From contig NZ_JAJTBG010000010.1 of the NCBI RefSeq assembly GCF_021287045.1, positions 1 through 64,000 of the forward strand: DNA of 64,000 bases, written 5' to 3'. The notes under the pieces were generated by a model. The model searched no databases, was not told the origin of the DNA, and worked only from the letters and a program-made list of their open reading frames with translations. Source of the stretch: Oryzomicrobium sp. (GTDB lineage: Bacteria > Pseudomonadota > Gammaproteobacteria > Burkholderiales > Rhodocyclaceae). The translations under genes were made by a program, and so were the position numbers. How positions within the stretch are numbered: position 1 is the stretch's first letter; each line of letters begins with the position of its first letter. Below are positions 18,348 through 23,797 of this stretch, one piece after another.

Positions 18348-19679
18348 ATGGACCTGCACCTCGGCACCCTCTTCCACTGCCTCGACGACCCGGACTCCAA
18401 AGAGAATGAAGCCCCGGCCCCGCCCGCCTGGGAATTCATCCCCCAGGGCGCCCTGGCCGTGGAAGGCGGACGCGTGGCGGACCGGGGCCCGGCGGCAGTG
18501 CTCGCCGCCCGCTACCCCGACGCCCGCCGTCACGACTGGGGCACCGGCCTGATCGTGCCGGGCTTCGTGGATACCCACATCCACGCCGCCCAGGTGGACG
18601 TGATCGCCTCCCACGGCAGCCAGCTGCTCGACTGGCTGGAGCGCTACACCTTCCCCGAGGAAACCCGCTTCGCCGACCCGGACCACGCGGCGGCGGCCTC
18701 CGCCTTCTTCTTCGACCAACTGGCCGCCCACGGCACCACCAGCGCCTGCATCTTCCCCACGGTGCACGAGGGCGCCACCGAGGCGGTATTCGCCGAGGCG
18801 GCCCGGCGCCGGCTGCGCATCGCCTGCGGCAAGGTGGCGATGAACCGCTTCTGCCCCGAGGCCCTACGCGACGGCCCCGACCTGGGCCGGGCCGCCACCG
18901 AGCGGCTGATCGCCCGCTGGCACGGCCACGGCCGACTGCGCTACATCCTCACCCCCCGCTTCGCCCCGGCCTCGACACCGGCACAACTGGCCTGGCTGGG
19001 CGGATTGCGCCGGGAGGTACCCGGCCTGGCGGTACAGTCCCACGTGGCGGAAAACCGGGCCGAAGTGGCCTGGGTGCAGGAGCTGTACCCGGAAGCGCGC
19101 AGCTATCTGGACGTCTATGAGCGCCACGGCCTGCTCGGCCCGGGCTGCGTCTACGCCCACGGCATCCACCTGGACGACGCCGACCGGGCCCGGCTGGCGG
19201 CCACCGGCACCGCCATCGCCTTTTGCCCGACGTCCAACGAATTTCTCGGTAGCGGCCTGTTTGACCTGGCCCGGGCGCAAGAGGCAGGCGTCACGGTGGG
19301 CCTGGGCAGCGACGTGGGGGCCGGCACCTCCTACTCGCTGCTGCGCACCCTGGCCTCGGCCTACGGGGTGTTGCAGTTGCAGGGGCAGAGCCTCAGCCCC
19401 TGGCGCGGCTTCTACCTGGCCACCCTGGCCGGCGCCCGGGCCCTGGGGCTGGACGGCCTGATCGGCAACTTCGAGACCGGCAAGGAGGCGGATTTCGTGG
19501 TGCTCGACCCCGAGGCCACGCCGGTGCTGGCCCGGCGCTGCGCCCGGGCCCTGGAACGGGCCGGGGGCGACCTGGCGGCTGCCGCCGGGGAAATCCTCTT
19601 CGCCCTGATGCTGCTCGGCGACGACCGGGCGGTGCGGACCACCCACATCCTGGGCGAGGCGGCCTACCGGCGGACGTAG
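18348..19679 (+). CDS. guaD: Guanine deaminase
   Basis: GuaD hydrolyses guanine to xanthine and ammonia in purine salvage or degradation. The 443-residue protein has the amidohydrolase zinc ligands in order: DTHIHAAQ (about residues 79-86), QSHVAEN, YAHGIH, and the aspartate of GLGSDVGAG. Length matches Escherichia coli GuaD (439). The call over other amidohydrolases rests on the PGFVDTHIH and SDVGAGTSYSLL contexts. It is a single gene between two hairpins; no other purine-degradation genes are adjacent. Confidence 0.9.
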   Translation: MDLHLGTLFHCLDDPDSKENEAPAPPAWEFIPQGALAVEGGRVADRGPAAVLAARYPDARRHDWGTGLIVPGFVDTHIHAAQVDVIASHGSQLLDWLERYTFPEETRFADPDHAAAASAFFFDQLAAHGTTSACIFPTVHEGATEAVFAEAARRRLRIACGKVAMNRFCPEALRDGPDLGRAATERLIARWHGHGRLRYILTPRFAPASTPAQLAWLGGLRREVPGLAVQSHVAENRAEVAWVQELYPEARSYLDVYERHGLLGPGCVYAHGIHLDDADRARLAATGTAIAFCPTSNEFLGSGLFDLARAQEAGVTVGLGSDVGAGTSYSLLRTLASAYGVLQLQGQSLSPWRGFYLATLAGARALGLDGLIGNFETGKEADFVVLDPEATPVLARRCARALERAGGDLAAAAGEILFALMLLGDDRAVRTTHILGEAAYRRT

Positions 19680-20398: not shown

Positions 20399-20851
20399 TC
20401 AGGCGCTCCCCGCTTGGCGCAGCCAGGTCTCGATCTGCTCGACGGACAGGGCGCCGGACTGGCGCGCCACCTCCCGTCCGCCCTTGAACAGGATCAGGGT
20501 GGGAATGCTGCGGATGGCGAAGCGCGCCGCCAGGGCCTGGTTGGCCTCGGTATCCACCTTGGCGAACCGCACGCCCGGGGTCCGCCGGGCCGCCGCCGCG
20601 AAGGCCGGGGCCATGGCCCGGCAGGGGCCGCACCAAGCCGCCCAGAAATCCACCAGCACCGGCTGGTCGGAACGGCCAACGTAACGCTCGAAATCGACGG
20701 CGCCGGCCCCCAGGGCGACGGGTTCCCCCGGCAGCAACGGTGCCTTGCACTGGCCGCAGGCGGGCCCTTCGCCAATCCGTTCGGCGGCGATGCGGTTGAT
20801 GGCGCCGCAGGACGGGCAGACGGCGTGCAGGGCGGAAGCGGTGGCGGACAT
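20399..20851 (-). CDS. trxC: Thioredoxin 2
   Basis: TrxC is a cytoplasmic disulfide reductase of the oxidative stress response. The 150-residue protein has the TrxC-specific N-terminal zinc module of two CxxC pairs (CPSCG near residue 12 and CGQCK near 32) and then the thioredoxin domain with the active site WCGPC near residue 74 and the cis-proline in SIPTL. The upstream region has a small inverted repeat, ATATG/CATAT, about 20 bases before the start; its meaning is unknown. No other redox gene is adjacent. Confidence 0.93.
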   Translation of the reverse strand: MSATASALHAVCPSCGAINRIAAERIGEGPACGQCKAPLLPGEPVALGAGAVDFERYVGRSDQPVLVDFWAAWCGPCRAMAPAFAAAARRTPGVRFAKVDTEANQALAARFAIRSIPTLILFKGGREVARQSGALSVEQIETWLRQAGSA

Positions 20852-20951: not shown

Positions 20952-21293
20952 TCAGCCGAACTTGAGGCCGAGCACCCCGCCCAGGATGAGGGCCACGCAG
21001 AGCATGCGCAGGACGGTTAGGGGTTCGCCGAACAGCAGGATGCCGAGCAGCACCGTGCCCGCCGCCCCCAGACCGGTCCACACCGCATAGGCGGTGCCGA
21101 TCGGCAGGGTACGGGCAGCCCAGCCCAGTAGAATCACGCTGACGGCCATGGCCGCCAGGGTCAGGACGGAAGGCGCCAGGCGGGTGAACCCGTCGGTGTA
21201 CTTGAGGCCGATGGCCCAGGCCACCTCGCACAGGGCGGCCGCCACCAGCACGGTCCAGGCCATGGGAATGGAAAGCAGGGGGAGAAACGACAT
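20952..21293 (-). CDS. gdx: Guanidinium exporter (SMR family, SugE/Gdx)
   Basis: This 113-residue, four-helix small multidrug resistance protein is a close match in pattern to SugE/Gdx: [22 protein letters not shown] with the membrane glutamate, then [15 protein letters not shown] and the terminal GLKFG. Gdx proteins export guanidinium in exchange for protons. I take the ATG at 21293 because GAGGA lies eight bases before it; the ATG at 21263 corresponds to the shorter start common in the family. A guanidine-II riboswitch immediately upstream supports the Gdx subtype rather than a quaternary-ammonium pump (Qac). Confidence 0.93.
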
Positions 21294-21309
21294 GGGGACA
21301 ATCCTCACA

Positions 21310-21353
21310 CGGGGCCGTCCCCAGACGATCAGCACGCTCCGGGCCGTCCCGGA
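21310..21353 (-). promoter_or_regulatory. Guanidine-II (mini-ykkC) riboswitch before gdx
   Basis: On the minus strand two hairpins lie in tandem. The first (21353-21338) is a perfect 6-bp stem, TCCGGG and CCCGGA, closed by an ACGG loop. The second (21323-21310) has a GGGG/CCCC stem, with a flanking U-G pair, and again an ACGG loop. A 14-base linker joins them. Paired hairpins with ACGR loops are the defining mini-ykkC pattern. The gdx ribosome-binding site GAGGA starts four bases after the second stem. GUCCCC just before the start codon could pair with GGGGAC from the second hairpin and hide the ribosome-binding site, consistent with guanidine-induced translation. Confidence 0.9.
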
Positions 21354-21592: not shown

Positions 21593-23797
21593 ATGACCAC
21601 CAGCCCACCCGATTCCCTCACCGCTGCCACCTGCGCGGCCGGCCGCCCCTCTTCCCGCCTGCCCTGGCCCCTGCTCACCGGCCTGGCCCTGGTGCTGCTG
21701 GCGCTCTGGCTGCTGCCCCTGGAAGGGGTCAAGCGCAGCCACGGCCTCTTTCCCCTGGCGCTGCACACCGTCTCCGAAATCTTCGCGGTGATCGTCGCCA
21801 TGCTGGTGTTCGCCGTGGCCTGGAACGCCTACGCCCGGGAGCGGGCCGGCAACATCCTGATCCTGGCCTGCGCCTTTCTCGGCGTGGGGCTGCTCGATTT
21901 CGGCCATGCCCTCTCCTACCAGGGCATGCCAGACCTGGTCACTCCCGCCTCGCCGGGCAAGGCCATCGACTTCTGGCTCACCGCCCGCCTGCTGGCGGCC
22001 CTGGCCCTGCTGACCGCCGCCCTGCGGCCGTGGACGCCGCTGCGCCGCAGCGAATCCCGCTACCGCCTGCTGGCCGGCGTGCTCGCGGCCACCGGCGCCG
22101 TGTTCGTCCTGCAACTGTACTGGCCCGAGGTCTGGCCCCTCACCTTCGTCCCCGGCCAGGGCCTGACCCCGTTCAAGGTCGGCACCGAGTTCGGCATCAT
22201 CGCCATCCTGGCCCTGGCGGCCTGGCGCTTCCACCGCCTGCACCGAGCCAAGGCCCCCTGCGATGCGGCCAACCTGTTCGCCGCCTGCCTGATCGGCATC
22301 CTGAGCGAGCTGTGCTTCACCCTGTACACCAACGTGCACGACCTGTTCAGCCTGGTCGGCCACCTGTACAAGATCGTCGCCTACCTGTTCATCTACCGGG
22401 CGATCTTCGTCGCCAGCGTGCGCGAGCCCTACCGGCGCCTCGAAGTCGCCATCGCCGAGCGCCAGGCGGCGGAAAACCGGGTCGAGTACCTGGCCTACCA
22501 CGACGCCCTGACCGGCCTGCCCAACCGCATGCTGCTCCAGGACCGGCTCGAACAGGCCATGGTCTGGGCCGGCCGGAGCGGCACCAAGCTGGCCCTGCTG
22601 TTCCTGGACCTGGACAACTTCAAGGCGATCAACGATTCCCTCGGCCACGCAGCCAGCGACGACCTGCTCAAGACCCTGGCGGCCAACCTGAAGGCCAGCC
22701 TGCGCAACACCGACACCATCAGCCGCCAGAGCGGCGACGAGTTCGTGATGGTTCTGTCCGGCCTCGACAACCGCGAGGACTGCACGCCGCTCCTGGCCCA
22801 GATCATGGAGGGCATCCAGGCGCCGATCCACCTGGGCGACACCGAAATCGCCCTGTCGGCCTCCATCGGCATCGCCCTCTATCCGGACGATGGCCAGACT
22901 TTCGACGCCCTGCTGCAAAAGGCCGAAACCGCCATGTACACCGCCAAGGAGGCGGGACGCAACGCCTACCGGTTCTTCGACGAATCCATGAGCACCGAGG
23001 CAGTCGCCAACCTGGCCCTGCGCAACGGCCTGCGCCGGGCCTTGGAACAAAAGCAGTTCGTGCTGCACTACCAGCCCCAGATCGACCTGGCCAGCGGCGC
23101 GGTGATCGGCGTCGAAGCCCTGATCCGCTGGCAGCACCCGGACCTGGGCCTCCTCGCCCCGGGCCGCTTCATCGCCGTAGCCGAGGACAGCGGCCTGATC
23201 GTACCCATGGGCGAATGGGTCATCGAAGAAGCCTGCCGCCAGGGCGCCCGCTGGCGGCGCGCCGGGCTGCCGCCCCTGGTCGTGGCGGTCAACCTCTCGG
23301 CCATCCAGTTCCGCCGCGGCAACGTGGAGCAGACGGTGATGCGCGCCCTGGAGGCCTCGGGCCTGCCCCCGGAATGGCTGGAGTTGGAACTGACCGAGTC
23401 GATCCTGCTCCAGGGCACCGACAGCGTGTTCGCCATCGTGCGCGAACTCAAGCGCCACGGCGTCAAGTTCTCCATCGACGACTTCGGCACCGGCTACTCC
23501 AGCCTGTCCTACCTGAAGCGTTTCGCGGTGGACAAGCTGAAGATCGACCAATCCTTCGTCCGCGACCTGGCCCCGGATTCCGACGACGCCGCCATCATCC
23601 GCGCCATCGTCCAGATGGCCCATAGCCTGGGTCTGCGCACCATCGCCGAAGGCGTCGAAACCGAAGACACCCTGGAACTGCTGCGCCACTTCGGCTGCGA
23701 CGAGGCCCAGGGCTACCACTTCGCCCGCCCCATGCCGGCGGAGGCCATAAACGCCTACCTGGCAAAAAACCACCCGCCCTTGGCCATGAGCGCCTAA
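21593..23797 (+). CDS. MASE3-GGDEF-EAL membrane cyclic-di-GMP protein
   Basis: A 734-residue inner-membrane signalling protein. Residues 25-275 contain several transmembrane segments and match the MASE3 sensor layout (HTVSEIFAVIVAMLVFAVAWN region and DFGHALSYQGMP). The GGDEF domain has SGDEF at 380-384, with serine in place of the first glycine, and keeps the RNTD inhibitory site at 371-374. The EAL domain keeps EALIRW, NLSAIQF, TESILL, DDFGTGYSS, KIDQSF and AEGVETE and looks catalytically complete. Cyclase activity is uncertain because of the SGDEF variant; phosphodiesterase activity is likely. It is a single gene ended by a strong terminator. Confidence 0.92.
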   Translation: MTTSPPDSLTAATCAAGRPSSRLPWPLLTGLALVLLALWLLPLEGVKRSHGLFPLALHTVSEIFAVIVAMLVFAVAWNAYARERAGNILILACAFLGVGLLDFGHALSYQGMPDLVTPASPGKAIDFWLTARLLAALALLTAALRPWTPLRRSESRYRLLAGVLAATGAVFVLQLYWPEVWPLTFVPGQGLTPFKVGTEFGIIAILALAAWRFHRLHRAKAPCDAANLFAACLIGILSELCFTLYTNVHDLFSLVGHLYKIVAYLFIYRAIFVASVREPYRRLEVAIAERQAAENRVEYLAYHDALTGLPNRMLLQDRLEQAMVWAGRSGTKLALLFLDLDNFKAINDSLGHAASDDLLKTLAANLKASLRNTDTISRQSGDEFVMVLSGLDNREDCTPLLAQIMEGIQAPIHLGDTEIALSASIGIALYPDDGQTFDALLQKAETAMYTAKEAGRNAYRFFDESMSTEAVANLALRNGLRRALEQKQFVLHYQPQIDLASGAVIGVEALIRWQHPDLGLLAPGRFIAVAEDSGLIVPMGEWVIEEACRQGARWRRAGLPPLVVAVNLSAIQFRRGNVEQTVMRALEASGLPPEWLELELTESILLQGTDSVFAIVRELKRHGVKFSIDDFGTGYSSLSYLKRFAVDKLKIDQSFVRDLAPDSDDAAIIRAIVQMAHSLGLRTIAEGVETEDTLELLRHFGCDEAQGYHFARPMPAEAINAYLAKNHPPLAMSA

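Follow-up and report, generated by a model that had tools for sequence, protein, structure and literature searches.

The leader of a gdx/sugE gene in the window, by which we mean the whole 64,000-nucleotide stretch of DNA analysed here, raises the question of how an aptamer as small as guanidine-II reaches the ribosome. An account of this step is what the locus can add beyond its known class. We consider it probable that the leader is a guanidine-II translational ON switch of a Gdx/SugE exporter, with an OFF state formed by a clamp between hairpin P2 and the start codon. Publications are cited by PMC identifier, from the available portions of their text.

A guanidine-II aptamer and its exporter gene

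An earlier note on this DNA had described two hairpins with ACGG loops just upstream of the gdx start, and both are present on the minus strand at 21354-21310; all features of the leader given below lie on this strand. The note had assigned them to the guanidine-II (mini-ykkC) class, and the covariance-model search by which it proposed to check this gave a match above the cut-off. The Rfam Guanidine-II model (RF01068) aligned to 21355-21310; the score was 35.2 bits and the gathering threshold 32 (E = 0.0025 when the window was searched with all Rfam families; E = 3.6e-5 in the genome search). This was the sole Guanidine-II match across the 3.9-Mb genome, and the same genome held no match to the Guanidine-I riboswitch. 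Hairpin P1 (21337-21354), defined by sequence, Rfam alignment and the predicted minimum free energy (MFE) fold, carries an ACGG loop at 21347-21344; its stem is perfect, as claimed, and counts 7 bp instead of 6. Hairpin P2 (21310-21323), defined by sequence and Rfam alignment, has four G-C pairs, one U-G pair and an ACGG loop at 21318-21315. The 13-nt linker between them (21324-21336) pairs with the Shine-Dalgarno region in constrained folds in which P2 is forced. The four bases 21310-21307 separate the CCCC of P2 from the Shine-Dalgarno sequence GAGGA (21302-21306), a gap that had been read correctly, and GAGGA lies 8 bases 5' of the gdx AUG (21293-21291), which starts 16 nt downstream of the aptamer 3' end.

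The element has the architecture of RF01068, with two ACGR-type loops (both ACGG) and a 13-nt linker (guanidine-II linkers range from 7 to 40 nt; PMC7544219), and also its context, directly upstream of a SugE-family gene. It is a true, ordinary guanidine-II riboswitch and a new example of a validated class. A degenerate, non-functional relic or a chance match to the covariance model would be in keeping with the modest margin over the Rfam cut-off (3.2 bits), with the ACGG/ACGG loop pair, seen in 8 of the 137 matches in the exploration set described below, and with a coding repeat (L330) that also scores above the cut-off, so that this small model can be fooled. We regard such an origin as very improbable, as both stems and loops are intact and stand upstream of an intact exporter gene, a relative from the same genus (L175) keeps the element despite a diverged linker and spacer, and ACGG/ACGG placed in an E. 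coli construct retains binding in vitro (PMC9300104). On that construct ACGG/ACGG was the weakest guanidine binder of the four loop combinations (KD 264 µM versus 59 µM for ACGA/ACGA; PMC9300104), and by this analogy the window switch may be less sensitive to guanidine.

The downstream gene (20952-21293, minus strand; 113 aa, AUG start at 21293) had been named gdx, and profile matches agree in identifying a SugE/Gdx-type SMR protein. It scored 131.6 bits against the NCBIfam SugE model NF008512, above the equivalog cut-off of 126, and matched PF00893 (SMR). Its best solved relative was PDB 6wk5 (E = 1.4e-32, residues 11-111), the record of which names the SMR family only; we take this structure to be Gdx-Clo. 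Compared with 6wk5, the window protein has a 10-residue N-terminal extension that is also present in L175. Opposite a 15-residue stretch of the window protein L175 carries MSFLPPLSAAAAWLV, and the internal Met11 is not kept, which makes AUG 21293 the likely start. Guanidine is presumably the transport substrate of this SugE-type protein.

Several other genes were identified around the exporter and elsewhere in the genome. Downstream (3') of gdx, on the same strand and after a 100-nt gap, lies thioredoxin TrxC (20399-20851, minus strand), which may be co-transcribed with it. A MASE3-GGDEF-EAL c-di-GMP protein (21593-23797, plus strand) is encoded divergently, and the riboswitch sits in the intergenic region common to the two genes. 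A guanine deaminase (18348-19679, plus strand; TIGR02967, 499.6 bits) is encoded near the exporter; this is a purine enzyme, with no evidence tying it to guanidine. Two more SMR-family matches occur in the same genome (G000:C16:138983-139261 and G000:C20:162969-163145), both without a guanidine-II leader, because the only match of the genome lies in the window.

Predicted fold of the window leader

The pairing proposed in the earlier note between GUCCCC (21299-21294) and GGGGAC (21322-21317) is part of the predicted MFE structure, in a helix one pair longer than stated: UGGGGAC (21323-21317) and GUCCCCA (21299-21293) form 7 Watson-Crick pairs that include the A of the AUG. Both strands of this OFF helix are found in the MFE and in the ensemble. 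The 5' strand joins the P2 5' arm and two bases of the P2 loop, A and C, and UCCCCA of the 3' strand recurs in L175. The note had also held that the ribosome site is looped out. GAGGA is indeed enclosed by the OFF helix, but its central GG (21304-21303) is paired in the MFE with the CC of the P2 3' arm (21313-21314) and has an unpaired probability of 0.00 in the free ensemble, leaving the outer bases of GAGGA open or half open (MFE and ensemble). The predicted OFF fold dismantles P2 on both sides, the 5' arm and loop going to the spacer and the A of the AUG and the 3' CC going to GAGGA.

The clamp helix had a probability of 0.999 in the free ensemble of a 75-nt leader and 0.985 in that of an 87-nt leader. 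The ensemble free energy of the window leader was -35.3 kcal/mol when free versus -28.5 kcal/mol with P1 and P2 forced, a cost of about 6.8 kcal/mol in secondary-structure predictions computed without Mg2+ or the kissing loop. The 75-nt fold gave a z-score of -1.53, and 21 of 200 shuffles folded equally well. When the sequence downstream of the aptamer was replaced, competition with the aptamer was at least equally strong for 59/2000 downstream-UTR shuffles and for 21/240 foreign downstream sequences. By these models the clamp in the window leader alone is only mildly beyond chance, and the masking idea for this leader is well supported as a prediction.

Related leaders were folded individually. 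In L175, UCCCCA is kept directly 5' of the AUG and pairs with UGGGGA of P2 in the MFE; the cost of forming its P1 and P2 was 1.47 kcal/mol, under its shuffle mean of 2.67; in the controls this value was reached by 1481/2000 shuffles and by 124/240 foreign downstream sequences. In two leaders of the same family, L029 and L168, UCCGGGACG pairs with UGUCCCGGA in a 9-bp clamp helix across the AUG. Together with L170 and L177, also of this family, these guanidine-II leaders precede proteins with long low-complexity N-termini that were neither exporter nor carboxylase by our motif rule; the L177 protein continues ...LPDRVRQIVLF.

The following sequence of events would account for a switch of this kind. 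When guanidine is absent, P1 would be folded and the P2 5' arm, together with the loop bases A and C, would be paired to the spacer that separates Shine-Dalgarno and AUG, clamping the initiation region around the start codon. Guanidine would bind both ACGG loops and lock them as a loop-loop complex, which would require a folded P2 and would occupy loop bases used by the clamp; the clamp would then open and the exporter would be translated. What was computed for this scheme comprises the match to the aptamer model, the identity of the gene, the clamp as a prediction, the similar clamp in the genus mate and the class-wide excess among exporter leaders reported below. Guanidine binding by the window element and the switching itself are inferred. 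A lock of 6.8 kcal/mol may, on these energies, be too tight for the ligand to open at equilibrium.

Forcing P1 and P2 largely opened the AUG, and GAGGA still paired with the linker; with the linker blocked as well, GAGGA paired with codons 3-4. Secondary structure thus does not account for the whole of the ON state. In the loop-loop complex, the linker has to be well stretched out (Huang et al., PMC5486947), and this extension could break the contact between linker and GAGGA. The same contact lends itself to a different scheme, in which an anti-Shine-Dalgarno sequence in the linker masks the Shine-Dalgarno, the kissing loop stretches the linker to free it, and the GUCCCC clamp is incidental. 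This is the published E. coli model (PMC9300104, PMC9094411), and it agrees with the pairing left to the linker and the GAGGA region when P2 is forced in the window leader. We judge it unlikely to apply here. The best linker-Shine-Dalgarno helix of the window has 4 bp (-4.7 kcal/mol versus -16.5 kcal/mol for the clamp), the free ensemble had 0.06 of the initiation region paired with the linker versus 0.52 with the P2 5' arm, and in the window the linker dominated only with P2 forced.

Extending the fold to 117 nt bears on another arrangement, in which the aptamer is real and switching proceeds through a flanking helix of the P0 type, as in P. aeruginosa, or through an upstream element. With these longer flanks a 5' segment, GAGGGCGGG, can pair with coding bases past the AUG, and P0 itself is supported in P. 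aeruginosa by mutants and RelE cleavage (PMC9561414). The 117-nt fold nevertheless retained the UGGGGAC/GUCCCCA helix, with P1 in a different register, and its z-score was only -0.31, so that the longer fold is overall no better than shuffles. We consider switching through the flanks improbable for the window leader, and more so than masking by the linker; the P2 clamp is the reading carried forward.

Exporter and carboxylase leaders

Searches of overlapping genome sets recovered the Guanidine-II motif in the order (64/399 genomes), the family (39/199), the class (27/369), the phylum (84/398) and a different order within the same class (41/250). The order, family and class searches supplied an exploration set of 137 loci, of which 131 were usable (75 exporter, 42 carboxylase and 14 other); the phylum and other-order searches supplied a held-out set of 119 new loci; 110 of these could be used, comprising 74 exporter, 18 carboxylase and 18 other leaders. 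A motif rule, not annotation, served to assign start codons and gene classes. Loci were excluded when the start codon was unassigned or the start lay outside 8-45 nt past P2, which removed 6 of 137 exploration and 9 of 119 held-out loci, six of the latter nine being exporters. The 14 and 18 'other' rows stood outside the exporter/carboxylase contrast, although they include some exporters whose start codons are GTG or atypical. The held-out set is from the same phylum and has some families in common with the exploration set, an overlap addressed by a 70% identity filter. Three places of the other-order set were left unused, one from G1390 plus two from a group of three that overlap in G1339. 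This group is L330 (G1339:C14:41724-41830), whose three overlapping Guanidine-II matches resemble a repeat within coding sequence (repeated GACGGGGACGGCCTCGTCGAC) more than riboswitches; L330, a false positive, stayed among the held-out 'other' rows.

For each leader, the cost was calculated as the free energy needed to form P1 and P2, and compared with UTR shuffles, with shuffles of UTR and first codons, and with downstream swaps between leaders of like GC. The 75 exporter leaders had a mean cost of 3.90 kcal/mol, compared with 1.97 for UTR shuffles, 1.73 for UTR and first-codon shuffles and 2.64 for GC-matched swaps (reached by 0/100 in each case). The 43 exporter representatives below 70% identity behaved in the same way (3.79 versus 1.95, 1.67 and 2.72 kcal/mol, respectively; 0/100 each). 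The cost of the 42 carboxylase leaders was 0.47 kcal/mol, below their controls of 0.87, 0.84 and 0.63. In the held-out set, the cost was 3.66 kcal/mol for 74 exporter leaders versus 2.08 for UTR shuffles (0/100) and 3.09 for swaps (1/100), and 4.27 for the 23 exporter representatives distinct from exploration versus 1.78 for shuffles and 3.00 for swaps (0/100 each). Held-out carboxylase leaders again had low values (0.29 kcal/mol versus 1.40 for shuffles and 0.41 for swaps among 18 leaders; 0.40 versus 1.14 and 0.42 among 10 representatives).

The predicted structures placed the P2 5' arm in the grip of downstream sequence in 42 of 75 exploration and 47 of 74 held-out exporter leaders. Control means were 24.6 and 27.2 for UTR shuffles and 34.8 and 38.2 for GC-matched swaps, and none of 50 control swaps reached the observed count in either set. 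This excess is real, but over swaps it is of moderate size, because swaps between exporters already yield much capture. Among carboxylase leaders, capture of the P2 arm was not above controls (3/42 and 2/18). The capturing partner in exporters mostly flanked the start codon, being centred on the spacer in 17 exploration and 15 held-out leaders and on the AUG with the first codons in 19 and 23; it lay later in the sequence in 5 and 1, and seldom on the Shine-Dalgarno (1 and 8). At codon 2 of the exporter genes (146 of 149 genes), UCC made up 34 of 52 serine codons; the control without an aptamer-like upstream sequence contained only 3 serine codons, too few to support a claim.

Simple complementarity gave a more mixed result. 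Taken over the whole initiation region, complementarity of the P2 arm did not beat swaps (0.082); around the AUG only it did (0.005), as one of 22 uncorrected tests. Pairing of the P1 arm was weaker, with uncorrected swap fractions of 0.010 for the whole initiation region and 0.15 around the AUG. The same analysis bears on masking by the linker. In exporter leaders, the linker was not more complementary to the Shine-Dalgarno than in swaps, 78.6% of which do as well, and in carboxylase leaders the result was only borderline (0.047, uncorrected). A count restricted to the stretch from Shine-Dalgarno to start favours the clamp less clearly. Of the 75 exporter leaders, 22 showed no main partner for this stretch; in the others it was the linker (21), the P2 5' arm (16), the P2 3' arm (14) or P1 (2). 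In the 42 carboxylase leaders it was the linker in 16, P1 in 1, none in 25 and P2 in 0. The linker model may thus hold for part of the class, and linker masking and the P2 clamp may act together in guanidine-II leaders.

These data suggest, with slightly more doubt than belief on our part, that guanidine-II leaders have two architectures that follow gene type, the E. coli sugE leader included: an exporter clamp, and a carboxylase form in which P2 is free. In exporter leaders the P2 5' arm and loop would base-pair either to the spacer or to the initial codons, making the ligand-binding loop the trigger strand; carboxylase leaders would leave P2 free and need other control. Within the open-licence literature, an exporter-specific start-codon clamp was not found in the available portions of PMC7544219, PMC9300104, PMC9094411, PMC12186494, PMC9561414 and PMC5486947, nor in those of PMC10907184, PMC9481103, PMC2864571, PMC3766115 and PMC13064478. 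Such a clamp is a computed generalisation.

Relation to published guanidine-II systems

The E. coli sugE/gdx leader (RF01068) resembles that of the window in having two ACGR-loop hairpins just 5' of an SMR exporter. Our folds of the E. coli leader (L340) pair the P2 5' arm with the G of the AUG and the next four bases (probability 0.68-0.77), so that the clamp lies on the AUG and codon 2 in E. coli and on the spacer in the window. The cost of P1 and P2 is 6.4 kcal/mol in the window versus 1.8 kcal/mol in E. coli, in folds extending 15 and 20 nt beyond the start codon, and the loops are ACGA and ACGG in E. coli and ACGG twice in the window. The published E. coli platform locates the anti-Shine-Dalgarno in the linker (PMC9300104, PMC9094411), and simulations of the E. 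coli aptamer at high Mg2+ show P2 opening and pairing with the linker (PMC9094411). A 20-bp deletion over E. coli P2 accompanies constitutive gdx expression (Kojima and Ito, PMC13064478), a phenotype that fits P2 as part of the OFF state; that study had one RNA-seq sample per condition and reads the OFF state differently.

In Pseudomonas aeruginosa, the same aptamer class also controls an exporter gene, as a translational ON switch whose P0 helix, formed between the 5' and 3' flanks and backed by the mutants and RelE cleavage cited above, holds the Shine-Dalgarno (PMC9561414); the platform is P0 there and a predicted P2 clamp in the window. A 2024 review describes the ribosome site as part of the ligand-free aptamer and released by ligand (PMC10907184). 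For Gloeobacter violaceus, Huang et al. (2017, PMC5486947) suggested a possible stem-loop that overlaps P2 and the ribosome site and is exclusive with the folded riboswitch. The idea of a P2-overlapping stem-loop is already in print for this organism; it is the same masking idea, put forward for one leader, with neither pairing bases nor a comparison of genes given in the available text, and in the window the predicted MFE helix likewise overlaps P2 and encloses GAGGA. Taken together, published platforms vary by species, and our comparison suggests that many exporter leaders use one solution, pairing of the P2 arm around the start codon, which carboxylase leaders do not.
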